Positions 4,566-47,310 of a stretch of DNA of 64,000 nt are shown here, piece after piece. Both the position numbers and the translations under genes were made by a program. Every line of letters starts with the position of its first letter. Within the stretch, counting starts at the first letter, position 1. Under the pieces are notes generated by a model that had not been told where the DNA came from, searched no databases, and worked only from the letters and a program-made list of their open reading frames with translations. Origin of the DNA: Lentisphaerota bacterium (GTDB lineage: Bacteria > Verrucomicrobiota > Lentisphaeria > Victivallales > Victivallaceae). The DNA lies in the NCBI GenBank assembly GCA_015061815.1, contig SUVW01000004.1:62001-126000 (forward strand), written 5' to 3'.

Positions 4566-4594
4566 TTGTTTTTCTCCTTGTTATTATGTATACT
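4566..4594 (+). promoter_or_regulatory. Promoter for the GH43-like gene
   Basis: TTGTTT (4566-4571), 17 bases, TATACT (4589-4594). It places transcription start near 4601, which argues against the upstream ATG at 4586 as start of the GH43-like gene and favours 4685. Confidence 0.6.
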
Positions 4595-4684
4595 TTATTC
4601 CCATCCGGGATGAGTTTTGCGCGGTGTCTTGTTGAATTGTTTCAAATACAAAAGATACTCCCCGGGGGAAAGGAGTACAAAAAA

Positions 4685-5716
4685 ATGATCAATAAAGAGT
4701 TGTGGCCGGATAACAATGGCCGTCATATCAACGCTCATGGCGGCGGCATTATGGAACACAAAGGAGTTTTCTACTGGTATGGTGAACACAAAGGGCCCGG
4801 GGTTGATGGCCAACTGGCCCGTGAGGGTGTACACATGTACTATTCTACTGATCTTCAGCTTTGGAATGATGGAGGAATCGTTCTCAAAGTAAATGATATT
4901 CCCAATCACCCGATCCATTCCGGCTGCCGTATTGAAAGACCGAAAGTGATTTTTTGTGAAAAGACCGGTAAATTCGTGATGTATTTTCACTCCAGCGACC
5001 CTGCACATATCATTGCCAGGCGGGGGCTGGCGATCGCGGATGATCCGGCAGGTCCTTTTGAATTTATCAGTGCAGAACGTCCCAATGCGGCAGTGTGGCC
5101 GTTGAATTCCTGCAGTAAAGACAAAGAATCCACCCTGTTTCCGGCGGGGCATAAAACAAAAAACGGCGAAAATGATACCGTAAAAAATCTTCCGCTTTAT
5201 GTGCGGGACTTTGCCGGCGGCCAGATGGCACGGGATATGAATCTCTTTAAGGATGAAGACGGCAGAGCCTATCATATTTACGCGTCAGAGCAGAACAGCA
5301 CTTTGCATATTGCCGAATTGACCGATGATCATCTCTACTGGACGGGGCGTTACTGCCGGGTGCTTCCTTACCGCTGGAATGAGGGAGAAGCCATTTTCCG
5401 CCGGGACAACCGTTATTATCTGCTGGCAAGCGGATGTACCGGTTGGGAGCCAAATGCGGCACGTTCTGCGGTTGCCGGCAGCATTATGGGTGAATATACG
5501 GAACTCGGCAATCCCTGCCGGGGAGATGGAGCAGAAATAACTTTCGGCGGACAGAGCAGTGCAGTTTTCAAGGCCGGAGATACCTATGTGGCAATGTTTG
5601 ACCTGTGGAATGAGCAGGATTTTATTGACAGCCGTTACTTCTGGCTTCCGATAAAATTTACTGAAAACGGCTATGAAATACACTACCGGAAAGAATTTGA
5701 TTTGAAGGTACAGTGA
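4685..5716 (+). CDS. Glycoside hydrolase family 43-like protein
   Basis: The 343-residue product resembles five-bladed propeller enzymes of GH43, especially the branch around exo-beta-1,3-galactanases, which share the NAHGGGI opening followed by a GxFYWYGE-like strand. Blade motifs visible are MYYSTDLQLW, RDMNLFKDEDGRAYHIY (probable pKa-modulating aspartate) and RWNEGEAIFRRDNRYYLL (probable general-acid glutamate). The aspartate that serves as base near the N-terminus of most GH43 enzymes is absent. There is no signal peptide, so it would act in the cytoplasm on imported oligosaccharides. GGAAAGGAG lies nine bases before the chosen ATG. Specificity cannot be assigned. Confidence 0.78.
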   Translation: MINKELWPDNNGRHINAHGGGIMEHKGVFYWYGEHKGPGVDGQLAREGVHMYYSTDLQLWNDGGIVLKVNDIPNHPIHSGCRIERPKVIFCEKTGKFVMYFHSSDPAHIIARRGLAIADDPAGPFEFISAERPNAAVWPLNSCSKDKESTLFPAGHKTKNGENDTVKNLPLYVRDFAGGQMARDMNLFKDEDGRAYHIYASEQNSTLHIAELTDDHLYWTGRYCRVLPYRWNEGEAIFRRDNRYYLLASGCTGWEPNAARSAVAGSIMGEYTELGNPCRGDGAEITFGGQSSAVFKAGDTYVAMFDLWNEQDFIDSRYFWLPIKFTENGYEIHYRKEFDLKVQ

Positions 5717-5863
5717 TGAATCAAGCTGCCGGTTTTCAGCAAATCAAAGTTGAAATTCTGCAGCAGGCGGTTGTAATGATCCACTGAAAGATCGTATTAC
5801 GTTCAGAAAATCAATATGGGAATGTGTTAAAGACATCTGAAAGGAAATGGAGTTCTTTTGAAA

Positions 5864-7042
5864 ATGACTGAATTCTTCTCAAAGCTTAAACATCAAATCC
5901 ATTCCGGGAAACGTAATGATACGGTTCCGATGATTTATGATGCACTGGCGCAGGAGCTTCGCCGCTCCGGCGGAACTTTCCGTTTACCGAATATCCAGCC
6001 GCTTGCGAAAGAACTGCAGGTTTCCAGCCACTCCGTCCGTAAAGTTTACACCCGGCTCTGTCAGGATGGATTAATCGAAAGACCTTTTCACAACCGTTGT
6101 TACAGAGCAGTACACCGTCACCGCGCCAATATTATCGCAATGCTCATTCCTGAAGCTTTCTATAGTTTTATCAGATTAACTGATCTGAATTGTCAATACC
6201 GTATACAGATGTATTCCGGCCTGGTTGACCGGGCATTGGAACTGGGTTGTCTGGCTACACCGGTGTTGCTTCCGCCGCCGGATGCCCCGGCAGAAAAAAT
6301 AGAGCAGATGCTTATTGATCTGCGTAATTATTGCGGTATAATTCATATCGGTGACAGGGGAGCTGCAGTTGATCTGCCGCTGCAATCCCTGCTGGCAGAA
6401 AAGAGCATTCCTCAAATCCTGTTGGGATGCGAACTGCCGGGGAGTGATCTGCCGACAGTCATTTTTGATCCCCGGCAGACAGCAGAAGGGGTACTGCATT
6501 ATTTACGCAGTTTCAATCACAATCACGTTGGGGTGATGTGGTGTGAGAGGTCTTCCCGGAAACCCGAATTGACAACCACGCTGAATTGTAATAAAGATAT
6601 ACGGTCCCATTTTGAATCAGTCCGCCCGAAAAATATGAAAATATCTTATTTGCGGGTCGCCAGCAATAAAAATTATACTGATGAATTTGTCCGTATCCTT
6701 ACGGAAGTATTCAGCAGAAGCGATCATCCAACCGCCTTGTGGTGCAGAGGAATATTGATAGCCTGTCAGGCAATGAAGGTTTTGAAAAGTATGAATTTTT
6801 CCATTCCGAAAGATATTTCCATCATGGCTTTCGGCAACCGTCTGGATGTGAATGTGATGACTCCGGCAATGACAACAATGGATTGTCAGTTTTACGAAAT
6901 GGGCAGAGCGGCAGTGGAACTTTTACTGAAATCTGTTCACGATGAACTGGACAGCCACGACAGAATCAAACGAATTTCCACCATACTGACCGCACGGTCA
7001 AGCGTTTCTATAAGAAATCAGGATGATTTCGATATAATATAA
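5864..7042 (+). CDS. GntR-type HTH / LacI-type sensor transcriptional regulator
   Basis: Residues about 10-75 form a GntR-like winged helix (IYDALAQELRRSGG, LPNIQPLAKELQVSSHSVRKVYTRLCQDGLIE). The rest (about 85-390) resembles the periplasmic-binding-protein-like sensor of LacI/GalR regulators, including NHVGVMWCERSS, PTALWCRGILIA and the C-terminal DISIMAFGN and MTTMDCQFYEMGRAAVELLL strands. The architecture is that of AraR-type sugar-responsive regulators. The start is either this ATG or a TTG six bases upstream that is closer to the GGAG at 5849. The gene is 25 bases before the pseudopilin-like gene and in the same orientation as two glycosidase genes, so it probably controls them. Confidence 0.85.
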   Translation: MTEFFSKLKHQIHSGKRNDTVPMIYDALAQELRRSGGTFRLPNIQPLAKELQVSSHSVRKVYTRLCQDGLIERPFHNRCYRAVHRHRANIIAMLIPEAFYSFIRLTDLNCQYRIQMYSGLVDRALELGCLATPVLLPPPDAPAEKIEQMLIDLRNYCGIIHIGDRGAAVDLPLQSLLAEKSIPQILLGCELPGSDLPTVIFDPRQTAEGVLHYLRSFNHNHVGVMWCERSSRKPELTTTLNCNKDIRSHFESVRPKNMKISYLRVASNKNYTDEFVRILTEVFSRSDHPTALWCRGILIACQAMKVLKSMNFSIPKDISIMAFGNRLDVNVMTPAMTTMDCQFYEMGRAAVELLLKSVHDELDSHDRIKRISTILTARSSVSIRNQDDFDII

Positions 7043-7067
7043 ACTCTAAAACAGAAAGGGTGAAAAA

Positions 7068-7907
7068 ATGAAAAGAAGAATGTATCCTGTCGTTCAATCC
7101 TGTCCCGACAACAACATTTTACCCGCCTGCAGGCGGGTAAAGCAGTGCTGCTTTACGCTGATTGAACTCCTTGTAGTCATTGCGATAATCGCAATTCTGG
7201 CAGCGATCTTGCTGCCGGCACTCAACCGGGCCAGAGAACATGCAAAAAGTTCGCAATGCCTGGCCAATTTGAAGCAGAATATCACCTCGCTGCAGATGTA
7301 TTCCAATGTGTTTGAGGGCTATATGCCTTCCACTTACCAGGAGGGAAGCACTACTAAAGCATGGACATATCCGCTTTATCTTGCCGGCTTGGCTCCGGCG
7401 AGCGGCAAAGAGTATAAAAATGTCCGGGTATGTCCGAAACAAGTCCATTTCGCGATGGCAAACGAATCACAGGAGGTGGCAAGTTCGGTTATCGATGTAT
7501 ATGCCTCACTGCGAATCGGCTGGTCGCAAAATGACTATCCGGCATTTACCAATATAAAACGGGTGAATAAACCCTCTGTTTATGCAATTCTCGGGGACGG
7601 TTCTCAAGGCTCATGGATAAACACGGTAAACGCCGGAAGGGGAACAATGGAAGTGAATTTTATCGATGACTCCATTGACCGGTTATTAATACCACTGCAC
7701 AACGGGAATTTTGCCCTGGTTTATTTGGATGGACACGCCGCTTTGACTGCCAGAGAAGGATTGGATGTGGTGTTTGGCGGATTATTCCCGGATGAACCGA
7801 AATTCACGTCAGATCAACAGCCCTGGATCAGATATTTGCGGGCTGACGGCAATTTGATTATGGATCACACTCAATGGAGACTTAAACCGGTTAATGGATT
7901 ACAGTAA
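7068..7907 (+). CDS. Prepilin-type leader protein with H-X9-DG motif
   Basis: After a 28-residue basic leader comes [16 protein letters not shown] (from residue 29), the type IV pilin/type II secretion prepilin cleavage and methylation segment; the residue before the cleavage site is Cys, not the usual Gly. The helix continues into [23 protein letters not shown]-like sequence. Near the C-terminus [12 protein letters not shown] matches the H-X9-DG motif of the large pseudopilin family that is greatly expanded in Planctomycetes and Lentisphaerae. AAAGGG precedes the ATG. The protein should be inserted in the inner membrane and processed by a prepilin peptidase. Its role is unknown; placement between a sugar-type regulator and glycosidases suggests a link with polysaccharide use. 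The leader is encoded over a perfect palindrome. Confidence 0.88.
7118..7156 (+). repeat. Two overlapping inverted repeats inside the pseudopilin leader
   Basis: A perfect 24-base palindrome (half-site TTTACCCGCCTG) covers 7118-7141. A second inverted repeat, GTAAAGCAG / CTGCTTTAC with two bases between, covers 7137-7156. They share five bases, so the corresponding RNA hairpins exclude each other. Both lie in frame within the leader codons just before the FTLIELL segment. Confidence 0.85.
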
Positions 7908-7925
7908 AAATAAGGTATAACAGAA

Positions 7926-9815
7926 ATGAATCCATTTTACATTGAAAATATCAACGGATTTCCCACACTGAAAAAAGATGGTACGCCGGTAAACCCTATG
8001 ATGTTCTGGGCCCGCGATGTCGATGACATTGATTTCCCGGAATTCCGCAAAGCCGGAATCAAAATTTTCAGCTGCTTCCGCTGGGCAAAATATTTTGAAT
8101 GTCCCTACTGGACGGGAAACGGACAATATGATTTTTCCTATTACGATGAGCAGTTGACCCGTTTCACCCGGCTGGTTCCGGATGGATATATCATTCCCCG
8201 GATTTTTGTCAGTGCGCCATTCTGGTTTTTGGATCAGCATCCGGATGAGCTTACAGAATTTGCCATTGATGTACCGTACACCCGGGATGGGATCGGCTCA
8301 ACTTATCACCATTCATTTGCTTCGGAATTGTGGAAAGAGGAGCAGGGCAAAGCATTCCGGGCGTTGATGAAACACTTCCGGCAAGCTCCCTATGGTGACC
8401 GGATCATCGGTATCCATGTGGCGGACGGCACTTGCGGTGAATGGCACTACTGGCGCGGCGGTTGTGCGCCGGATTGCGGCAAAGCGATGGCGGCCAGACT
8501 CGGCCGTCCGGTACCGCCGCTGGAGGAGCGTGATCCGGAATATTATCAGGCATTTTATTCAGCGGCAGTGGATGCAATTGATCACTTCTGCCGGATCGTA
8601 AAAGAGGAAACTGATTATCTGACGGCAGTATTTTACGGTTATTTCCCGATGGAAACAGTTCAGATCAATTCCGGTCACTGTGCGATGGAAAAGTTTCTGT
8701 CGCTGGGAAATGTAGATATCGTGGCAGCTCCACACAGTTACTCCCGCCGATTTCCCGGAGAAGACGGTTATTTCCGGGCGATCCCGGCAACTTTGGCGAA
8801 ACACGGTATATTGTTTCTGGATGAATCCGATGACCGCACACCGCTGGCGACAATAAAATATGAAAATCAATCTTTGATCATGGCAGAAAATCCGGAAAAA
8901 GCTCTGCATTGGCTCTCCCGGGAATTCGGCAATGTCGCTGCTCATTGCGCCGGTCAATGGTTCATGGATATTGATATCGGAATGTTCCGGGACCGGATAT
9001 ATTATGAACATATCGCCAAATTGTACCGATGCGGTGACCGGCTTCTGCCGCTGCCCCGCCGGCGGGTGTCGGAAGTGGCATTGATCACGGACCCGGAGAG
9101 CAACTGGTACTATTCGCGCAAAAATTATCCCAATGCACTGTATTTTTCCATCCAGCAGATGCGTGAATTGACTCATACAGGAGTACCGTTTGACTTTTTC
9201 TGTGCCGGAGATATGGATGCCAAAGAGATGGAAAAATACAAGGTGCTGATTTTCACCGATGTGGTTGCGCTCTCTGAAAAATGCCGTTCAGAGATCAAAA
9301 AACTGCAGAAAGATCACCGATGCTTTATCTGGACCTGCGGTGACGGGGCAGTGTCCCGTGACGGGAAATTTTCTCCGGACAAGGGGATGGAAGATCTGAC
9401 CGGGATCAAATTCACCCTGACCGGCAAACAGCTTTTGCCGCCTTTGAAAGACCCGTATATCACTCTGGAGGAAAAGTGGTGGCAGTCGCCGGGATTTCTG
9501 CCGGAAAAAGCGGATGTGGATTTCGGCTCATGGCGGTCAGTATACCGTTCCTGTCCGAATTATTCTGCCGATGAATTGCGGCAGATATTCAAAGACAGCG
9601 GGGTGCATATTTATTCAGAAGACGGCGATGTGATTTCGGCAAGCGAAAGCGTATTGATGATTCACGCCTCGTCTGACGGCTGCAAACGTATCCGCCTGCC
9701 CCGGCCCCGGAAAGTCAGTGATCTGCTCAATAATTGTCCGGCTGGAGAAAATATAACACAATTTGAAGTTCAGATGCAACTGGGAGAAACTGCATTATTC
9801 ATGCTCGAAAATTGA
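7926..9815 (+). CDS. GH42-like beta-galactosidase-type glycoside hydrolase
   Basis: The 629-residue product looks like a clan GH-A enzyme of the GH42 type. The N-terminal barrel contains Glu172 in DGTCGEWHYWRG (probable acid/base) and Glu300 in ILFLDESDD (probable nucleophile), a spacing compatible with GH42. Residues about 370-480 resemble the Rossmann-like trimerisation domain of that family (ALYFSIQQMRELTHTGVPFDFF, KYKVLIFTDVVALS). A small C-terminal beta domain follows. There is no signal peptide, so it should work in the cytoplasm on imported glycosides. It begins 18 bases after the pseudopilin-like gene and is probably co-transcribed with it. The substrate is not evident. Confidence 0.75.
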   Translation: MNPFYIENINGFPTLKKDGTPVNPMMFWARDVDDIDFPEFRKAGIKIFSCFRWAKYFECPYWTGNGQYDFSYYDEQLTRFTRLVPDGYIIPRIFVSAPFWFLDQHPDELTEFAIDVPYTRDGIGSTYHHSFASELWKEEQGKAFRALMKHFRQAPYGDRIIGIHVADGTCGEWHYWRGGCAPDCGKAMAARLGRPVPPLEERDPEYYQAFYSAAVDAIDHFCRIVKEETDYLTAVFYGYFPMETVQINSGHCAMEKFLSLGNVDIVAAPHSYSRRFPGEDGYFRAIPATLAKHGILFLDESDDRTPLATIKYENQSLIMAENPEKALHWLSREFGNVAAHCAGQWFMDIDIGMFRDRIYYEHIAKLYRCGDRLLPLPRRRVSEVALITDPESNWYYSRKNYPNALYFSIQQMRELTHTGVPFDFFCAGDMDAKEMEKYKVLIFTDVVALSEKCRSEIKKLQKDHRCFIWTCGDGAVSRDGKFSPDKGMEDLTGIKFTLTGKQLLPPLKDPYITLEEKWWQSPGFLPEKADVDFGSWRSVYRSCPNYSADELRQIFKDSGVHIYSEDGDVISASESVLMIHASSDGCKRIRLPRPRKVSDLLNNCPAGENITQFEVQMQLGETALFMLEN

Positions 9816-9830
9816 TAGAGGTAAAATTAT

Positions 9831-12821
9831 ATGAAAAAAATATCATTGTTTTTGCTGTTGTGGGGATTACCGCTGCTGTCCGGAGCCGGTATATTAGCTC
9901 CGGGAGAACGGATCACCGTACCACTGCCGGATGGAAAAATGCCCAACGCCGAACGCTTGATAGTCACCTTCACAGCCCGGTGTGACCGCCCGATGAATGT
10001 AAATGACTCACGCTTCATGATCGTGGCAGTCAACGGCAAACGGGTGGATAAATATCTTTCTCCAGGTCAAAATAAAATTCCCCGGCTGGTTAACAGAACC
10101 AGTCCGACTTTTCATGGCAGCGGCTATAATTATACCGATAAAAACAGTTGTTGGAGCGTGGTTTCCTGCAAAGCTGATTCGGATGCGGAGCATATTTATT
10201 TTCCCGCAGACTTCCGACAGCTGCACATCTATGCGATGGATGTGACCGATTTTCTCGGTTCCGGCAAAAATTCTCTGATCATCGGAAATACCGCTTCTCC
10301 TGCAGGGAATTATCCTCTGCATATCGGGAAGGTGAAAGTGGAAAATATCCACGCATCCAAACTTCCGGATCCGGTGGAAAGGAGTTTTTCCGGCTATGCG
10401 GTTATTCCCAATAAAAATCTGCCTCTGGCCGGTACCGCAGAAAAAATTCGGGTAGAAGTCCCCCGAAAATCCGGTTTCCGCCGGGTATTGCGTTTCCGTG
10501 CCAGACTTGGGTACACCGCCGAAGGCAGTAACGGAGATTTGAAAATTTTGATAAATGACCGTATCCTTACTCCGGAAAATGAGAACCAGTTGAGCCGTTT
10601 GCTCAATCGCGGAGCTTTTTTCCGCGGCGGCAATGAGTCAATAATCGCATCTCATGGCAGAATTGTTGTCGCCCACCGGGCTGATTGGGGGATACCTTCG
10701 GAAAAGCTTGAGGATTTGAAAGTCAACTGGTACTACCTGGATATCGATGATATGCTTCATAACAACGGCGGCACCATTTCTCTGCAGAATGTGGCCTTCG
10801 TTCCTTATTTCAAGAAACGCGGATACAAAGACGGCAGACCTTTTCTGCTTTTTTGGGATGGTGCAGTCGGTTATGTACCGGAAGTTTGTGCAGCTCTCGC
10901 TCCGGCACGAAAAACCGAAAGCCGCAAATTTGCGGACAGTGATAAAAAAATCAAAACGGACAATTATGTTTTGAGCATAGCACCGGCAGGAGGTTTGCAG
11001 ATCGAAGCCGGAAAACAGAAATTTTTCGTGGAAACTCTTTACAGTTATCCCCGGGCCGGATTTAATGCGTTTCTCTGTGACGGTGCAAAGGCGGTGACTC
11101 CGGAAAAAGAGTTCAAAGGAAAAATCAGCGAAAAGCACGGAACTTTCACTTATGAATATTCCGGCAAATACTATTCTGTGATACGGACTGTGAAGTGTGC
11201 GGCAAATGCAATTCATGTCAGTGAAAAAATCACCAATTTGAATAATGCTCCACTGGGGATGAAATTTGAAATCAATATGATCAGCGCAAACCGGGCGCAG
11301 GTCATCCGTAAAAACGGCAGTACGTTTTTTAATAATAATTTGAGCAGTCATCGCTTCCCGTGCGGCAACACTTCTCTTTTCTGGGGATTCAGCAAAGGAG
11401 ACTCCCGGGGTTTGGGAATTGCGGTCGTTGATGATATCTTCCGGATGCAGGCAGATTACCGGACTGATCCCGGCAGCGGCGGCATCAGTACCTCTCATCT
11501 CGGTTTTGCCGCCGGTAAATCACACACGTTGCGTTACACGATCTACATTCTGCCATCCGCAGATTACTTTGATTTTGTTAATGCCGTCCGGCGGGATTGG
11601 GGTGTCAACAATCGCACTATACCCGGATTTATAACCTGGAACAATCACCATATCCGTAATAATCCGGATAAATTCAAAACCTCAATAGCCAATTTAGGCA
11701 CTTCGATCCTCATCGACGGCAAAGAGTGGTACAATGCCCGGAAGTATCATGAAAGATCTTTCAACATTGCCGATGAGATGAAAATTCATACAGAATGGAA
11801 AAATCTGGGGAAAACTCTCTGTCCGGATATCCGCTATCTTCTGCAGTTTCAAATGGTATTTTCCTGGCGCAACAAGGAAAAATCTCCTGACCTGATGGCT
11901 GATTCAGCGATCATCAACCACGAAGGACATGTTGATATTTTTGCCCGCGCCAGAAAAGGAGCTCCATACTCTTCCACCTACGGATATGGCGAACCTGGAT
12001 TATATCACGCATATCACTATCCGATGATCGGCAATTCATATTACCGTTTTCTGATGGATTCAGCCCGGGTGGCAATGGATAACGGTTTTAACGGCGTATA
12101 TTATGACACTCCGGAATATGATGCTGTAACTTACGGCAGATTCACCTTTGACCGTTGGGATGATGCAACGGTGGATTTGAATGATGACTTCACCATTGCC
12201 AGAAAATATGCGGATGTCAATCTGATTTCGGTACAAGCCCGGTATGAACTTTATAAATATATTACCGGACGCGGCGGTATTATAGTGTTGAATGCTCCGC
12301 CCCACAATGAAAAAATTCAACAGATGCCGGGAATGATCATCCATCATACCGAGGGTGACCGGGAGGATTCTCTGGCCAGAATGCATTTTTCCACCCCGGT
12401 AGTATTAGGACAATACCCCCGGGATGCAAAAGGGACTCCGGGGTATACCGGTTCGCCGCGTAAACGTTTTCTGACTGGAGAAGATTTTATGCAGGATATG
12501 GTATGGAAAATCTCAAACGGAGTTCTTTACGCTGCTTATTGGCCGCCCAAAGATGTCCCGGAAAGTCACGAGTGGCCCACAAGAGATATGTATCCGATTA
12601 CGGTAACAGATATTCACGGCGGCTGGATTCGCGGCAAAGAACGTATCATTACCGTAAAAAGCGGCAAATTCGGTTGGGAAAATGAAAAAGTCGCCAGTGC
12701 CAGAATCCGGGTTTACGGGAAAAACGGCTGCATGATCAGCGACAGTCAGGTGAATAGCGATGCTGCCGGACAGTTTGAAGTCAAACTTCCGGAAAGCGGA
12801 ATGGCAATTATCATCCGCTGA
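9831..12821 (+). CDS. Exported 996-residue putative glycosidase
   Basis: A signal peptide (about residues 1-20, ending near SGAG) precedes a large protein I cannot assign to a named family. Residues about 20-600 look beta-rich. From about 600 a barrel-like region is suggested by alternating strands and helices: GTSILIDGKEW, IRYLLQFQMVFSW, GFNGVYYDTPEY and GIIVLNAPPHNE. The aspartate in VYYDTPEY and the acidic cluster HHTEGDRED are candidates for catalysis, and EPGLYHAYHYP is rich in possible substrate-contacting aromatics. A short C-terminal beta domain ends the chain. It follows the GH42-like gene by 15 bases and is closed by a terminator at 12843. Likely action is on extracellular or periplasmic polysaccharide; this is inference. 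Confidence 0.6.
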   Translation: MKKISLFLLLWGLPLLSGAGILAPGERITVPLPDGKMPNAERLIVTFTARCDRPMNVNDSRFMIVAVNGKRVDKYLSPGQNKIPRLVNRTSPTFHGSGYNYTDKNSCWSVVSCKADSDAEHIYFPADFRQLHIYAMDVTDFLGSGKNSLIIGNTASPAGNYPLHIGKVKVENIHASKLPDPVERSFSGYAVIPNKNLPLAGTAEKIRVEVPRKSGFRRVLRFRARLGYTAEGSNGDLKILINDRILTPENENQLSRLLNRGAFFRGGNESIIASHGRIVVAHRADWGIPSEKLEDLKVNWYYLDIDDMLHNNGGTISLQNVAFVPYFKKRGYKDGRPFLLFWDGAVGYVPEVCAALAPARKTESRKFADSDKKIKTDNYVLSIAPAGGLQIEAGKQKFFVETLYSYPRAGFNAFLCDGAKAVTPEKEFKGKISEKHGTFTYEYSGKYYSVIRTVKCAANAIHVSEKITNLNNAPLGMKFEINMISANRAQVIRKNGSTFFNNNLSSHRFPCGNTSLFWGFSKGDSRGLGIAVVDDIFRMQADYRTDPGSGGISTSHLGFAAGKSHTLRYTIYILPSADYFDFVNAVRRDWGVNNRTIPGFITWNNHHIRNNPDKFKTSIANLGTSILIDGKEWYNARKYHERSFNIADEMKIHTEWKNLGKTLCPDIRYLLQFQMVFSWRNKEKSPDLMADSAIINHEGHVDIFARARKGAPYSSTYGYGEPGLYHAYHYPMIGNSYYRFLMDSARVAMDNGFNGVYYDTPEYDAVTYGRFTFDRWDDATVDLNDDFTIARKYADVNLISVQARYELYKYITGRGGIIVLNAPPHNEKIQQMPGMIIHHTEGDREDSLARMHFSTPVVLGQYPRDAKGTPGYTGSPRKRFLTGEDFMQDMVWKISNGVLYAAYWPPKDVPESHEWPTRDMYPITVTDIHGGWIRGKERIITVKSGKFGWENEKVASARIRVYGKNGCMISDSQVNSDAAGQFEVKLPESGMAIIIR

Positions 12822-12842
12822 ATTATTCAGGTGCATTTCTGC

Positions 12843-12872
12843 CGTTGCCGGAAAATTCCGGCAACGTTTTTT
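12843..12872 (+). terminator. Rho-independent terminator of the glycosidase operon
   Basis: CGTTGCCGGAA (12843-12853) pairs with TTCCGGCAACG (12856-12866) and is followed by six T. It lies 21 bases after the stop of the 996-residue gene. Confidence 0.9.
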
Positions 12873-12975
12873 GTACCCGATGGGATAGACCAAAGCCGGA
12901 CTGCCGCAAAACTTTTGCCGCATTCCACATGCTCCATGCTGTCAAAGCATATCAACAATGTGCCGCTGACCGAAA

Positions 12976-14250
12976 CTAAAATTCCGGAATACCGGCAAAT
13001 TTCAACAGCCGCAGCCAATCGTAATCCGCGATACCGTGTCCCTCTGTCCGCCGGTAATATCCCAGATATTCACCAATAGCCGAGGTATCATAATCCGCCG
13101 GATACGGAACTTGCGGGAAACCGGGTTTGCCGCAAACTTCCCATGCCGGAGATGCCGCCTGACAGGCCAGAAATTCCCCCTCGGTATCAAACCAGGGAGA
13201 GTCAAATCCGGCGATCAGTACTTTTCTGGGCGCAATGGCGGAAATAAGCAGATGTTGATCAAAAGTGAGCAATTTGGCCGGATTGCGCTCATATTTTTTA
13301 TACGCACGGCAATACCAATGGGAAAACATCCGCATTTCAGTTGCAATATTCTCTCCAAAGTCCCGCTTGGCCAACGTCGCTCCGCCGCCACCGCACTGAA
13401 TCGGCACGCAAACGGCAAAACGTTCATCTCTGGCCGCAGCCAGCAACGCCGCTTTCCCCAGGCGGGAACAACCGGTAACCACATTCCGTCCGGCATCTAT
13501 TTCAGGTATACGTCCGGCAAGTTCCAATCCCCGGGACAATGCCCATGCCCAAGCCCCCAGAGCTGTCGGATTATCCATCCTGCCTTCATCCCGCTTCCCC
13601 CAGAGGTCAAAAACTCCGGTATACGCGAAGTTTTCCTGACGGTAACGCTCTTCTGTTTCATTGCTGTTGGGATCGGGAGAAACCTGACAGTAACATGCCG
13701 TCATCACCGCATAACCGGCACTCAATAACATTCCGACTGGCATGGTCGAATTGCTGTTGGGATCGCACATCGTCCCCCGATCCGGAAAAACTTTGCGTTC
13801 CGGGGTATCACGCGACCACATATCCGGAATAAGAATATCTTCATCCGGAATAAGCTGATGGTTGCCGTGAAAATTCAAAAACAATATCACCGGAACCGGT
13901 TTGGTTGCATGACGCGGACGGATGACCAGCCAATCCATGACCGGGCCGCTTTTATCAGCTTTGAACCACATCCGGTACTGTGAACGGACGGCATAACCGG
14001 CCAATGCATCAGACTTTTCATCGATCAATTCAGTGACCATCACCTCCGGCGGCGGCGGTTCAACTCCAAACATCTCCCCGGCGAAAATATCCAATATCTC
14101 CCGGCGGCGCGCCGCCCATTGTCCGGCATCGGTCACCTTCTGTCCGTTGACAAAAGTCAACGGATCTTCCAGCGTGTATGAGGTGATTTTTTCCGGATCA
14201 TAATTAGCTTCAAAGTAATTCGGTCGGATATCCGGCACCGGATTTGACAT
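12976..14250 (-). CDS. Carbohydrate esterase family 15-like glucuronoyl esterase
   Basis: The 424-residue alpha/beta hydrolase has the CE15 hallmark GCSRLGK (residues 260-266) with Ser262 as nucleophile, a glycine-rich IQCGGGGATLAKRDFGE region after it that normally carries the acid, and His405 in EGHGIADYDW as probable catalytic histidine. FLNFHGNHQL corresponds to the oxyanion-hole region. Family members cleave esters between glucuronic acid and lignin or xylan. No signal peptide is seen from the chosen ATG at 14250, which has AGGAGAAGG just upstream; a TTG at 14292 would only add a non-hydrophobic extension. A cytoplasmic esterase is unusual for polymer-acting CE15 and suggests imported oligosaccharide substrates. 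It is convergent with the glycosidase operon. Confidence 0.8.
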   Translation of the reverse strand: MSNPVPDIRPNYFEANYDPEKITSYTLEDPLTFVNGQKVTDAGQWAARRREILDIFAGEMFGVEPPPPEVMVTELIDEKSDALAGYAVRSQYRMWFKADKSGPVMDWLVIRPRHATKPVPVILFLNFHGNHQLIPDEDILIPDMWSRDTPERKVFPDRGTMCDPNSNSTMPVGMLLSAGYAVMTACYCQVSPDPNSNETEERYRQENFAYTGVFDLWGKRDEGRMDNPTALGAWAWALSRGLELAGRIPEIDAGRNVVTGCSRLGKAALLAAARDERFAVCVPIQCGGGGATLAKRDFGENIATEMRMFSHWYCRAYKKYERNPAKLLTFDQHLLISAIAPRKVLIAGFDSPWFDTEGEFLACQAASPAWEVCGKPGFPQVPYPADYDTSAIGEYLGYYRRTEGHGIADYDWLRLLKFAGIPEF

Positions 14251-14301
14251 TTTTCCTTCTCCTGACATACTGTTTTCAAACATCTGCTGCAATTATTTCA
14301 T

Positions 14302-43492: not shown

Positions 43493-46030
43493 TTACAAAC
43501 CGGCGCGGTCTTTGTAGAGCGAAAGGATGTGCAGCGCGGTACGGTAACAGGAATTTTCCGGAATCACTGCAGCATCTGCTTCAGCGGCAAAGACTTTTTT
43601 CCGCGCCTCATTCATCCGGATAAATGCCGCCGACGGGTCGGATTCTCCGGCCAGAAACGGCGGCAAACCATTCTTCAATATTCTTTCAAATGCCACGTTA
43701 TCATCGGTATTCAGCCAAACCTTGAAACCGAGCCGATGCTTCACATCGGCAGTCACGAAAGGATTGCTCAATGCTCCGCCGCCAAGCGCGATGACCTGTC
43801 TGGCCGGAGAATCAGCCAAAGCGGTCAATACGTCTGCCTCAAGTTTCCGGAAAAACTCTTCGCCTTCTTCGCGGAATATCTCCCGGACACTGCGCCCGCT
43901 GCCTTCACGCTGCACGATCATATCATCGCTGTCGGCAAAAGGAATATCAAGAATTTCCGCGATTGCCCGTCCGACACTGCTTTTGCCGGAGTGTTTGATA
44001 CCGCACAGCACGATATTTTCCGGCAAGTTGTGAACACTCTTATAGCAAAGCCAGGAATCACGCAAATCCCGTCCCTGACGGAACAATCCGGCAAAACGCT
44101 CTCCGTCACCGGCGACCAGAGCCGAACGCATCTCATCCAAACTGTTCTGAAACTCATCCAGTGCCGGTAAAATCGCCGGGGTATTGGCCAGACAGATATC
44201 TTTCCACATCTCCGGTGAACTTGAGGCGATCCGGGAAGTGTCCCTGAACCCGGTGGCACATCCGGAATAGTGCCGCCGCTGTTCCGACGGATCATCCCGG
44301 TCAAGAATACTGCGGGTCAACGCCGAAGCGATAATGTGCAGCATATGGCTGGTATGAGCGACCAGTGCATCATGAGCCGCCGGATCGATCATCCGCACGT
44401 GTGTATTGAGTTTTTCCCACAAGCCGGTGACAGCCTCAATCCCGCTGCCGGTGGAATATTTCCCCGGAACAACAAAAACGTCGGCATTTTCATACAACCC
44501 CCTGAATCCGGAACGATAACCGCTTTTTTCCGTGCCGGCCATCGGATGTCCACCAACGAAATTCAAGTCCGGGAACTCCTCTGCAGCATCCATTACCGCT
44601 GTTTTAACACTGCTGACATCGGTAAGTACCGCGCCCGGTTTCAATTGATCATGATACTGCCGGATAAATTTTACCGTCACCGGTATCGGCAGACACAAAA
44701 CCACTATATCCGCACTGCGGAACGCCTCGGATACATCCCGGTAGATCCTCTCGGCCGCACCGGATTCCATCATCATCCGGCTGCCTTCCGGGTCGCGGTT
44801 CCAAACTCCGACCCGGTAATGGCGGTGGTCCAGACTCATGGCCAGTGAACTGCCAAGCAATCCCAACCCGACAACAGCTGCTTCCGGACGTTCATCAGCC
44901 GGGACGCCGGAATTTTCCGGGAACCGCCAGGCATAATAATCTGTCAGCAATTCCGCAGTTTTCCCGGGATCAAGATCCACCGTTTTCACCTTGCCATCGG
45001 CCAGAGGCAAAACTGCGCGGAATCTGCCGTCGCCATTTTTTTTGTCACCTTTCATCAATTCAACGATCCGGACAACATCATGTTTCACCGCCGACAGCGG
45101 AAATTTCCCCGGCGCGATACCGGCGCAAGTCAGCAAATCATACTGTCTGGACTGCAGTTTTTCATCGCACAATCCCAACTTCACCGCCGTAAATGCCGCC
45201 ATATCCATCCCGACCGCGACCGCTTCACCGTGAGTCAGCCGGAAACGGGAAAGATGTTCTATAGCGTGCCCGAAAGTGTGTCCGTAATTGAGGAATACCC
45301 TGCCGCTGTCACCGGATTCTTTTTCATCAGCCGAAACCACCATCGCCTTTATCTCACAGGAACGCTTCACCGCCCGGAGCAAAAATGCTTTATCCGACAA
45401 TATATCTGACGGCATTTCATTTATAAGAGTACGGACAAATCCGGCATCCCGGATCATCGCAGTTTTGATGATCTCCGCCATACCGCTGCCAAGTTCCCGT
45501 GCCGGCAGAGTGTCGAGCAATCCGCAATCGATGACCACCAGAGAAGGTTGATGGAATGCCCCGACCAGATTTTTCCCGTGTACCGTATCAACAGCCGTTT
45601 TACCGCCGACGGAAGAATCCACCATCGCCAGAAGCGAGGTCGGGATCTGAATAAAATCCACTCCACGCATAAACATCGCAGCTGCAAATCCGGTCAAATC
45701 CCCGGTCACACCGCCGCCGAGGGCGGCAAAAAGGGCATTGCGCCCCAATTTGAGCGAACTGGCGTAACCGCACAGTTTCATGGCATTATCCATATTTTTG
45801 GATGCTTCTCCGGCGGGTAAGACCCAGGAATATACGGTTTTACCGCTTTTTTCCATCGCCGCTGCAACGCGCGGCAAATACTGCGCGGTATTGCTGTCTG
45901 CGGTGATCAATACATTTTTTTGCGGCAAAGCGGAAAAAGCCTCCAGCACCGCCGGTGAATCCACTGCACTGAAAATTATATCGTAACTGCGCTTACCCAG
46001 TTCCACTCTGACTCGGGGTACCTCTTTCAT
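43493..46030 (-). CDS. Trifunctional fusion: 3-dehydroquinate synthase, prephenate dehydrogenase, shikimate kinase (AroB-TyrA-AroK)
   Basis: One 845-residue frame contains three enzymes. Residues 1-370 are AroB: GGGVTGDLTGF, the DSSVGGKT NAD site and zinc ligands Glu186, His251 and His267. Residues 383-665 are TyrA: Rossmann VVGLGLLGSS, GGHPMAGTEKSG with His495, and HTSHMLH. Residues 670-845 are AroK: P-loop GIKHSGKSS (677-685), ADSDD, EEFFRKLE and ALGGGAL; the LID segment reads GLPPFL where RPLL is usual, so its arginine seems absent. The chain would catalyse steps 2 and 5 of the shikimate route plus oxidation of prephenate. AGGA stands six bases before the ATG, two bases after the aroA stop. 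No stop or frameshift separates the parts. Confidence 0.95.
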   Translation of the reverse strand: MKEVPRVRVELGKRSYDIIFSAVDSPAVLEAFSALPQKNVLITADSNTAQYLPRVAAAMEKSGKTVYSWVLPAGEASKNMDNAMKLCGYASSLKLGRNALFAALGGGVTGDLTGFAAAMFMRGVDFIQIPTSLLAMVDSSVGGKTAVDTVHGKNLVGAFHQPSLVVIDCGLLDTLPARELGSGMAEIIKTAMIRDAGFVRTLINEMPSDILSDKAFLLRAVKRSCEIKAMVVSADEKESGDSGRVFLNYGHTFGHAIEHLSRFRLTHGEAVAVGMDMAAFTAVKLGLCDEKLQSRQYDLLTCAGIAPGKFPLSAVKHDVVRIVELMKGDKKNGDGRFRAVLPLADGKVKTVDLDPGKTAELLTDYYAWRFPENSGVPADERPEAAVVGLGLLGSSLAMSLDHRHYRVGVWNRDPEGSRMMMESGAAERIYRDVSEAFRSADIVVLCLPIPVTVKFIRQYHDQLKPGAVLTDVSSVKTAVMDAAEEFPDLNFVGGHPMAGTEKSGYRSGFRGLYENADVFVVPGKYSTGSGIEAVTGLWEKLNTHVRMIDPAAHDALVAHTSHMLHIIASALTRSILDRDDPSEQRRHYSGCATGFRDTSRIASSSPEMWKDICLANTPAILPALDEFQNSLDEMRSALVAGDGERFAGLFRQGRDLRDSWLCYKSVHNLPENIVLCGIKHSGKSSVGRAIAEILDIPFADSDDMIVQREGSGRSVREIFREEGEEFFRKLEADVLTALADSPARQVIALGGGALSNPFVTADVKHRLGFKVWLNTDDNVAFERILKNGLPPFLAGESDPSAAFIRMNEARKKVFAAEADAAVIPENSCYRTALHILSLYKDRAGL

Positions 46031-46032
46031 CT

Positions 46033-47310
46033 TCAATCCTGCAACTCCCTGATTACTGCGCCAAGATCACGGAAATCGGCGGCAAATTCCGGATAAGTAA
46101 CTTCACAGGCACTGCCGTCGGCGATCGTAACTGCACCGTCAGCCCCCAGAGCCGCAACCGTTAACGCCATAGCAATCCGGTGATCGTGATAACTCTCCAC
46201 TTCAGCTCCATGCAGCTGTCTGCCGCCGCGAATGACCAACCCATCCGGCAATTCGGTGATATCAGCTCCCATTTTCTGCAATTCACAGCTCATACAGGCG
46301 ATCCGGTCACACTCTTTAAGCCGTGCTTGCGGAACATTGATCAGACGGGTGACGCCTTCGGCGAAGCAACCCAAAACCGCCATTACCGGCAATGCATCGG
46401 GAGTGGCATTGAGATCAAATGTCCCTCCGGTCAGACGGGATTTTTTCACCACGACCTCTCCATCGGCCATATAAATATCCCCATTCATCGCCCGGACATA
46501 ATCAAAAACCCGCTTATCTCCCTGCAGATCATCGAAATCCAAATTTGCGATCCTCACCTCTTTTCCCGCCACCACTCCGGCACCAAGCGGGAATGCCGCT
46601 GTTGAAAAATCTGCCGGGATCACCCGGGAAAAGGGTTTGTACTCCTGATTTCCGGGAATTTCATAATACAGCATATTTTCTGCCGGATAAACTGTTATTC
46701 CGCACCGGTCAAGCCAATCCAGAGTGATTTTCACATAATCAGCTTCATTGAGAAAATCCAGTTCCAGCACCGAATTTTGTTGAGCCAGAGGCAGAGCCAT
46801 GAGCAATGCTGTAAGAAACTGGCTGGTCGTCCCGTCAACTTTGGTCCGTCCGCCGGTCAACGGCCCGGAAACACTCAAAGGAGCAAAGCCGTTGCAACTG
46901 CGGCAATCAGCTCCCAAATCAGCAAGTGCATCGAGCAATCCCTGCATGATCCGGGTACGCAAAGATGCATCCCCGTCAAAACTGATTTCTCCCCGTCCCA
47001 GAGCTGCCGCAGCGGTGATTATCCGCATCGTTGTACCGGAATTCCCCAGATCCACCGGCAATTCCGGAGAAGCAAAATCCTTTCCGCATCCGGAAATTTT
47101 CCACACCTCACGGGATTCATCGACTTTCGCTCCCAAAGCGGCTGCCGCCGACAGCGCACTGCGGGTATCAGCGGAATACAATGGAGCGTATATTTCCGAA
47201 CACCCTCTGCTCAACAATCCGGCGATCACCGCCCGGATCGTATGACTTTTGGAACCGGGGACTGCTATGCGCCCGGATAACTCATTTCCCGGAATTATCT
47301 GCCAATCCAT
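46033..47310 (-). CDS. aroA: 3-Phosphoshikimate 1-carboxyvinyltransferase (EPSP synthase)
   Basis: The 425-residue enzyme joins shikimate 3-phosphate and phosphoenolpyruvate. It has PGSKSHTIRAV at the N-terminus, LGNSGTTMRI (Ser where Ala is usual in LGNAGT), VDGTTSQFLTALL, the DFSTAAFPLGA centre, RLKECDRI and HDHRIAMAL. The ATG at 47310 is preceded by GGAGAG eight bases upstream; a GTG at 47319 overlaps the chorismate mutase stop. It lies between chorismate mutase and the AroB fusion. Confidence 0.96.
   Translation of the reverse strand: MDWQIIPGNELSGRIAVPGSKSHTIRAVIAGLLSRGCSEIYAPLYSADTRSALSAAAALGAKVDESREVWKISGCGKDFASPELPVDLGNSGTTMRIITAAAALGRGEISFDGDASLRTRIMQGLLDALADLGADCRSCNGFAPLSVSGPLTGGRTKVDGTTSQFLTALLMALPLAQQNSVLELDFLNEADYVKITLDWLDRCGITVYPAENMLYYEIPGNQEYKPFSRVIPADFSTAAFPLGAGVVAGKEVRIANLDFDDLQGDKRVFDYVRAMNGDIYMADGEVVVKKSRLTGGTFDLNATPDALPVMAVLGCFAEGVTRLINVPQARLKECDRIACMSCELQKMGADITELPDGLVIRGGRQLHGAEVESYHDHRIAMALTVAALGADGAVTIADGSACEVTYPEFAADFRDLGAVIRELQD

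Follow-up and report, generated by a model that had tools for sequence, protein, structure and literature searches.

The window analysed here, a 64,000-nucleotide stretch of contig SUVW01000004.1 (positions 62,001 to 126,000), comes from a Lentisphaerota bacterium, which is a gut-associated bacterium, and the element in question is an open reading frame (ORF) at 9831..12821 on the forward strand. An earlier note on this DNA had singled out its product as an exported protein of 996 residues and a possible case of a new glycoside hydrolase (GH) family. The ORF is real: it runs from an ATG for 996 amino acids, is preceded by AGAGG, and is separated by 15 bases from the stop of the upstream GH42-like gene (7926..9815). 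The reading frame is not a product of chance, since the 38 homologues, whose median pairwise identity in the barrel region is 23%, sort into 16 clusters when cut at 40% identity. Its N-terminus, MKKISLFLLLWGLPLLSGAG, resembles a signal peptide when judged by eye from the sequence, in agreement with export. Comparison with Pfam, NCBIfam and PDB sequences, CAZy lying outside the comparison, supports the proposal of a new family: the protein appears to represent an unclassified GH-like family whose superfamily fold and catalytic layout can be recognised in its predicted structure. The family is not a categorically new system. The gene and the features of its product are listed below.

9831..12821, + strand: secreted 996-residue GH-like protein of an unclassified family (ORF, 38-sequence alignment, AlphaFold2 model)
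9831..9884, + strand: probable signal peptide, residues 1-18 (hydrophobic N-terminus by eye; inferred boundary)
9885..10388, + strand: domain A, residues 19-186, beta domain, copy of B (hhalign, model strands)
10389..10904, + strand: domain B, residues 187-358, beta domain (kept in most aligned members)
10926..11609, + strand: beta-supersandwich, residues 366-593 (structure matches over ~367-592: GH65, GH94, galactose mutarotase)
11610..12545, + strand: (beta/alpha)8 barrel, residues ~594-905 (model strands; barrel matches GH168, GH66, GH30)
12105..12107, + strand: Asp759, end of beta4, proposed nucleophile (D in 38/38; pairs with the GH168-type DG-x-x-x-D Asp)
12159..12161, + strand: Asp777 in the beta4-beta5 loop, part of an invariant W-D motif (D in 38/38)
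12291..12293, + strand: Asn821, end of beta5 (817-821), substrate-binding candidate (N in 37/38; pairs with the GH168-like Asn by hhalign)
12351..12353, + strand: Glu841, end of beta6 (strand 836-841), proposed acid/base (E in 38/38)
12588..12818, + strand: C-terminal beta domain, residues ~920-996, with invariant P922, G931 and E937 (alignment and model)

A diverse family without a Pfam model

Searched at E ≤ 1, the window protein gave a single irrelevant match in each library, Stimulus_sens_1 in Pfam (0.22) and PseH in NCBIfam (0.12), and by phmmer it matched no PDB sequence at E ≤ 10. The absence of a recognisable family signature was thus confirmed: neither Pfam nor NCBIfam has a GH or polysaccharide lyase model that the protein fits. 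With the barrel region as query, family matches were found in 12 of 194 genomes of the phylum, one genome carrying up to nine; 15 of 60 near relatives had matches, the bacterium's own genome being counted in both samples. That genome (G000) holds six matches in five genes, query included. From 62 ORF hits we aligned 38 sequences (alignment A1) after dropping duplicates and fragments, among them a truncated orthologue 87% identical to the window protein (L007) and an own-genome paralogue (L002) represented by L008. A Pfam scan of the 38 members at E ≤ 0.1 returned only accessory-domain or stray matches, such as Laminin_G_3 and CBM9 in three members each and the GH2 sugar-binding domain in one (E 0.095); no Pfam GH catalytic model matched any of them. 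Beyond the phylum, sampling was thin and consisted of a contig scan with short peptide patterns, which gave three loci, all from Lentisphaeria/Lentisphaerae. A plasmid search gave no match, and literature searches, whose coverage mostly excluded subscription papers, returned no paper that we recognised as describing the family. Relative to Pfam, NCBIfam and PDB sequences the family is unclassified; a CAZy family with neither a Pfam model nor a structure could still contain it.

Predicted structure

The AlphaFold2 model of the window protein has a predicted local distance difference test (pLDDT) score of 85.3 and a predicted template modelling (pTM) score of 0.83. The earlier note had described a beta-rich N-terminal half and a barrel-like C-terminal half, and both are borne out by the prediction: beta strands dominate up to about residue 575, and the pattern beyond suggests a (beta/alpha)8 barrel whose strands lie at 600-603, 624-628, 668-674 and 755-759 (beta1-beta4) and at 817-821, 836-841, 857-859 and 899-901 (beta5-beta8). 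The beta-supersandwich would pack on this barrel, with two tandem beta domains ahead of it. The supersandwich and barrel regions are kept in all 38 aligned members, and the columns of domain B contain more than 110 residues in 33 of the 38; family member L003 has neither N-terminal domain. Domains A and B represent the same domain in duplicate (hhalign probability of 98.8 for A against B, 0.3 for the reversed control), and this domain may bind carbohydrate. Folded alone, the N-terminal domains gave a poor model (pLDDT 63), for which we claim no fold name; their structure matches were weak, with low TM-scores, and came mostly from double-jelly-roll viral capsid proteins, PNGase F and exo-alpha-D-arabinofuranosidase.

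Foldseek placed GH31 enzymes (E 7.1e-13 to one of them), FpGalNase and GH36 proteins at the head of its list, and GH97 proteins lower. Over residues 370-996, the top VIA-align match was FpGalNase of Flavonifractor plautii (PDB 9ayu), which we take to be a GH36 enzyme, with Z 15.7 and a root mean square deviation (rmsd) of 5.1 over 520 aligned residues; GH129 NagBb (5wzq) also matched this region (Z 15.1, rmsd 4.9, 480 aligned). Matches confined to the barrel came from GH168 (Z ~14), GH66, GH30 and alpha-amylases, all at Z 13.6-15. As matches within one Z unit were treated as ties, structure places the protein in a broad group, not in one family. Structure prediction and comparison with GH families, which the earlier note had called for, point to a confidently modelled supersandwich-barrel fold of the alpha-galactosidase-superfamily type.

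The likeness in fold to individual families is matched unevenly by sequence. NagBb has the same succession of supersandwich, barrel and C-terminal beta domain, yet neither the window protein nor any of the 38 members matches the GH129 model PF11308. FpGalNase, the best full-length fold match though within one Z unit of several others, is only 6% identical to the window protein. Melibiase (PF02065), the GH36 model, has no match in the window protein or the 38 members, nor does the GH101 model PF12905 match. GH31 alpha-glucosidases and sulfoquinovosidases share the layout of a nucleophile on beta4 and a proton donor on beta6.

Profile kinship to GH168/GHL15 and DUF6259

A profile of the family barrel (A3) was compared with 177,635 PDB sequences and gave six matches at E ≤ 10, all of the GH168 (fucanase) type: 9f9v (1.6e-5), Fun168A 8ya6 (0.0054), 8rg5 (0.11), 8rg3 (0.12), 9jom (0.18) and 9jos (1.4). 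The titles of 9jom and 9jos name them as GH168 fucanases; 8rg3 and 8rg5, titled PbFucA, were counted as GH168-type by likeness. Fragments of 9f9v and Fun168A, 35% identical to each other, match the Pfam model GHL15 (2.2e-16 and 8.9e-19, respectively). Relatives of the 9f9v fragment occur in 9 of 188 phylum genomes, and the four that were scanned, out of 25 aligned, all match GHL15 at E 1.6e-34 to 7.5e-46. A literature search, likewise mostly without subscription papers, found no paper naming PDB code 9F9V.

Profile-profile comparison gave the same direction. By hhalign, the family barrel scored 92.6 against GH168-like sequences (25 sequences; reversed control 0.4) and 87.4 against DUF6259 (12 sequences; reversed 0.2), and the whole-protein profile scored 93.5 and 65.5, respectively. 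Reversed controls across the barrel comparisons lay between 0.1 and 0.5. GH31 (20 sequences) reached only 15.0, GH101 (5 GH101-type sequences, two of them weak) 1.0 against 0.1 reversed, GH36 (20) 0.9 against 0.5 reversed, and GH129 (19) 0.1, so that for these four families kinship in sequence is weak or absent though the folds match. A GH66 search gave matches in just 2 of 59 genomes, not enough to build a profile. Judged by these profiles, the window protein is not an orphan and has a distant, measurable kinship to GH168/GHL15 and DUF6259.

With GH168 the family shares the barrel, a DG-x-x-x-D motif at beta4 and an Asn at beta5; the Glu that each has at beta6 is a putative further correspondence. 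D759 pairs with the Asp of the GH168 motif by both HMMER and hhalign, and N821 pairs with the GH168-like Asn by hhalign. Passages of PMC10778895 give D206/E264 as the catalytic pair of the GH168 enzyme FunA, and those of PMC12210190 give D167/E237 as the predicted pair of MeGH168 and describe GH168 as inferred to be retaining. In the 8ya6 chain the corresponding acids are D221 and E279, which would be FunA D206 and E264 offset by a 15-residue tag. There are also differences. GHL15 (PF14885) matches neither the window protein (E ≤ 1) nor the 38 members (E ≤ 0.1). The span from Asp to Glu is 76-89 residues in the family versus 58 in FunA and 70 in MeGH168, following the published numbering in those passages. 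FunA and FWf5 are described in the part of PMC10778895 drawn on here as lone catalytic domains behind a signal peptide, whereas the window protein adds a supersandwich and N-terminal domains. Within the phylum, GHL15 proteins of greater length and with several domains also occur, and one protein (L107:919-3303) fuses an alpha-L-fucosidase domain (PF01120) to a GHL15/GH168-like domain.

DUF6259 (PF19773) has an invariant Asp386 that pairs with Asp759; its other conserved motifs differ, and the Pfam model matches none of the 38 members (E ≤ 0.1). An alignment of DUF6259 proteins (A2; L073 and others) is clearly related to GH129 by profile (hhalign 98.0, reversed 0.2), and DUF6259 is therefore probably a GH group. 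It is abundant in the genus, with 10 matches in the window's genome.

Candidate active site and proposed mechanism

Two candidate acids had been picked out by the earlier note, in the motifs VYYDTPEY and HHTEGDRED. They correspond to D759 and E841, and both are invariant in the alignment; the acids D759, D777, E841 and E937 are conserved in 38 of 38 members. The model indicates the layout of a catalytic pocket, in which beta4 ends in D759 and beta6 in E841. Across the 38 members D759 and E841 are 76-89 residues apart and N821 and E841 16-23; in the GH168 enzyme FWf5, N234 and E254 are 20 apart (passages of PMC10778895). According to passages of PMC1249566, enzymes of the alpha-galactosidase superfamily carry their nucleophilic Asp where beta4 ends, at its C-terminus, and GH27 and GH31 enzymes have their proton donor at the corresponding end of beta6. 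By position in the model and by conservation, D759 and E841 match the nucleophile and proton-donor positions of this superfamily (GH27, GH31, GH36).

Since D759 and E841 fit the layouts of both the alpha-galactosidase superfamily and GH168, we propose a retaining hydrolase of alpha-type bonds, the step from position to function being inferred. In this scheme, Asp759 would attack the anomeric carbon and Glu841 would serve as acid/base, while Asn821 and the W776-D777 loop would shape the -1 subsite. An alpha-type (axial) glycosidic bond would be cleaved with retention, as in GH27 and GH31 and presumably in GH168.

Genomic neighbourhood and candidate substrate

The gene lies at the end of a cassette that runs from a regulator (5858-7042) through a prepilin-like protein (7068-7907) and the GH42-like protein (7926-9815) to the window protein. 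The neighbouring genes are as follows.

4586..5716, + strand: homologue of GH43_24-type exo-beta-1,3-galactanases (PDB 6eug E 7e-93; also 3vsf, 7bys, 5flw)
5858..7042, + strand: regulator with LacI-type sugar-binding and GntR-like DNA-binding domains (Peripla_BP_3 7.4e-17; GntR 1.5e-5, 2 bits below cut-off)
7068..7907, + strand: prepilin-like protein, N_methyl (Pfam PF07963 E 2.5e-7)
7926..9815, + strand: GH42-like protein, directly upstream (Pfam GH42 E 6.7e-6, above its cut-off)
12976..14292, - strand: CE15 glucuronoyl-esterase homologue, convergent downstream (PDB 6gry E 9.9e-65; 6syu, OtCE15A, 3.4e-59)

At the locus of the truncated orthologue (L007), which comes from a yak-colon metagenome-assembled genome (MAG), gene order is the same, going by the sizes of the ORFs and their initial residues. 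No PDB sequence matches the GH42-like neighbour at E 0.01, so that it adds little on substrate; with its weak Pfam match, it may be another unclassified group.

The GH43_24-type gene, 4 kb upstream of the family gene, is more informative. Among the GH43_24 residues named in passages of PMC7939473, a Glu-Arg pair, a catalytic Glu and a Gln base can be seen in its product (alignments read by eye). In another genome (G001, L068), a gene 74% identical to it adjoins a family gene 53% identical to the window protein. Among 14 selected genomes of the genus, two carry such a gene, three copies in total, and in both one copy is near a family gene. Several family copies adjoin glycosidase genes. Because a GH43_24-type exo-beta-1,3-galactanase gene accompanies the family gene, arabinogalactan side chains are our leading candidate for the substrate, a step we hold tentatively and at clearly less than even confidence. 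The enzyme would then act on the side chains of type II arabinogalactan, on a sugar such as alpha-L-fucose, alpha-D-galactose, beta-L-arabinopyranose or alpha-L-rhamnose.

Four of the five family genes in the window's genome (the window gene, L063, L064 and L065) have a prepilin-like ORF at most 3 kb upstream, on their own strand. This genome contains 73 prepilin-type N_methyl matches, and the chance expectation of an ORF so placed is 0.044 per gene, by a test devised after the pattern had been seen. At the window locus the GH42-like gene stands between the two; the fifth family gene, close to the end of a contig, is the second ORF after a DUF1559-type fragment. At some loci of this genome a regulator of the GntR and LacI type precedes the prepilin-like ORF, giving a regulator-pilin-glycosidase cassette. 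Locus L072 (G011:C8) holds two family genes close together on the same strand (6083-9148 and 10232-13288), and the ORF ahead of each has what looks by eye like a prepilin N-terminus. Elsewhere in the window, 43493-46036 (- strand) encodes an 847-residue protein in which domains of 3-dehydroquinate synthase, prephenate dehydrogenase and shikimate kinase are fused.

Weighing of alternative explanations

On balance, we favour a secreted, probably retaining GH whose family is unclassified, has the alpha-galactosidase-superfamily type of fold and is nearest by sequence to GH168/GHL15 and DUF6259, and consider this reading somewhat better than evenly supported. Several observations weigh against it. 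Fold matches are scattered over many GH families at rmsd ~5 Å; profiles fail to link the barrel to GH129, GH36 and GH101, and hardly link it to GH31, despite agreeing folds; and four of the six PDB profile matches have E values above 0.1. Confidence in the hhalign alignment to GH168 ends before E841, and a forced extension leaves E841 unpaired with the GH168 Glu, so that its assignment as acid/base derives from conservation, strand position and spacing. The activity may also be that of a lyase or phosphorylase. As to the arabinogalactan link, the ORFs listed at L007, the orthologous locus, include none of GH43_24 type, and searches of genomes G004 (54% complete) and G008, which both have close family members, found no match to the gene.

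The protein could instead be a highly divergent member of an existing CAZy family, namely GH168, GH129, GH36 or a recent family with neither Pfam model nor structure. The barrel profile does reach GH168-type sequences, and in fold the protein resembles NagBb and FpGalNase over 480-520 residues. Scanned GH168-type proteins, however, match GHL15 without exception (four of four phylum proteins, two of two fragments), whereas no Pfam or NCBIfam GH model fits the window protein and no Pfam GH catalytic model fits the 38 members; the supersandwich region, present throughout the family, also sets it apart from the lone domains of FunA and FWf5. We regard membership of an existing family as unlikely. 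Less remote, if still well short of an even chance, is that the fold is as proposed and the glycan differs: mucin-type O-glycans or sulfated fucans, cut in the manner of an alpha-N-acetylgalactosaminidase or an endo-fucanase. Galactosaminidases are the best full-length fold matches and fucanase-type proteins the nearest PDB sequences, one homologue (L071) is two genes away from a GH20 hexosaminidase, and, by record title, a yak-colon MAG is the source of two of the three relatives that are named. Against this, the neighbours of clearest specificity, the GH43_24-type and CE15 homologues, point to plant cell walls, and the neighbour scans made, which covered only part of the neighbours, showed no sulfatase. 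A non-catalytic or non-hydrolytic role, for example as a glycan-binding protein or lyase, would suit the tandem N-terminal beta domains; we consider it very improbable, as four acids invariant in every member at 23% median identity resemble an active site, not a decayed one.

Implications

The family is large and diverse and is without a Pfam model, its window member also being without an NCBIfam model. A known activity would name many hypothetical proteins and might yield an enzyme for use on arabinogalactan or on glycans of the mucin type. The profile links among GH168, DUF6259, GH129 and GH31 give a testable grouping of families. It is conceivable, though we rate the combination as doubtful, that the proteins form a new GH family bridging the bare-barrel GH168/GHL15 and the supersandwich alpha-glycosidases (GH129/DUF6259, GH31, GH36) and that they supply the missing alpha-acting enzyme for arabinogalactan side chains in Lentisphaerota. 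If so, such a bridging family, exo- or endo-acting, would group families so far kept apart.

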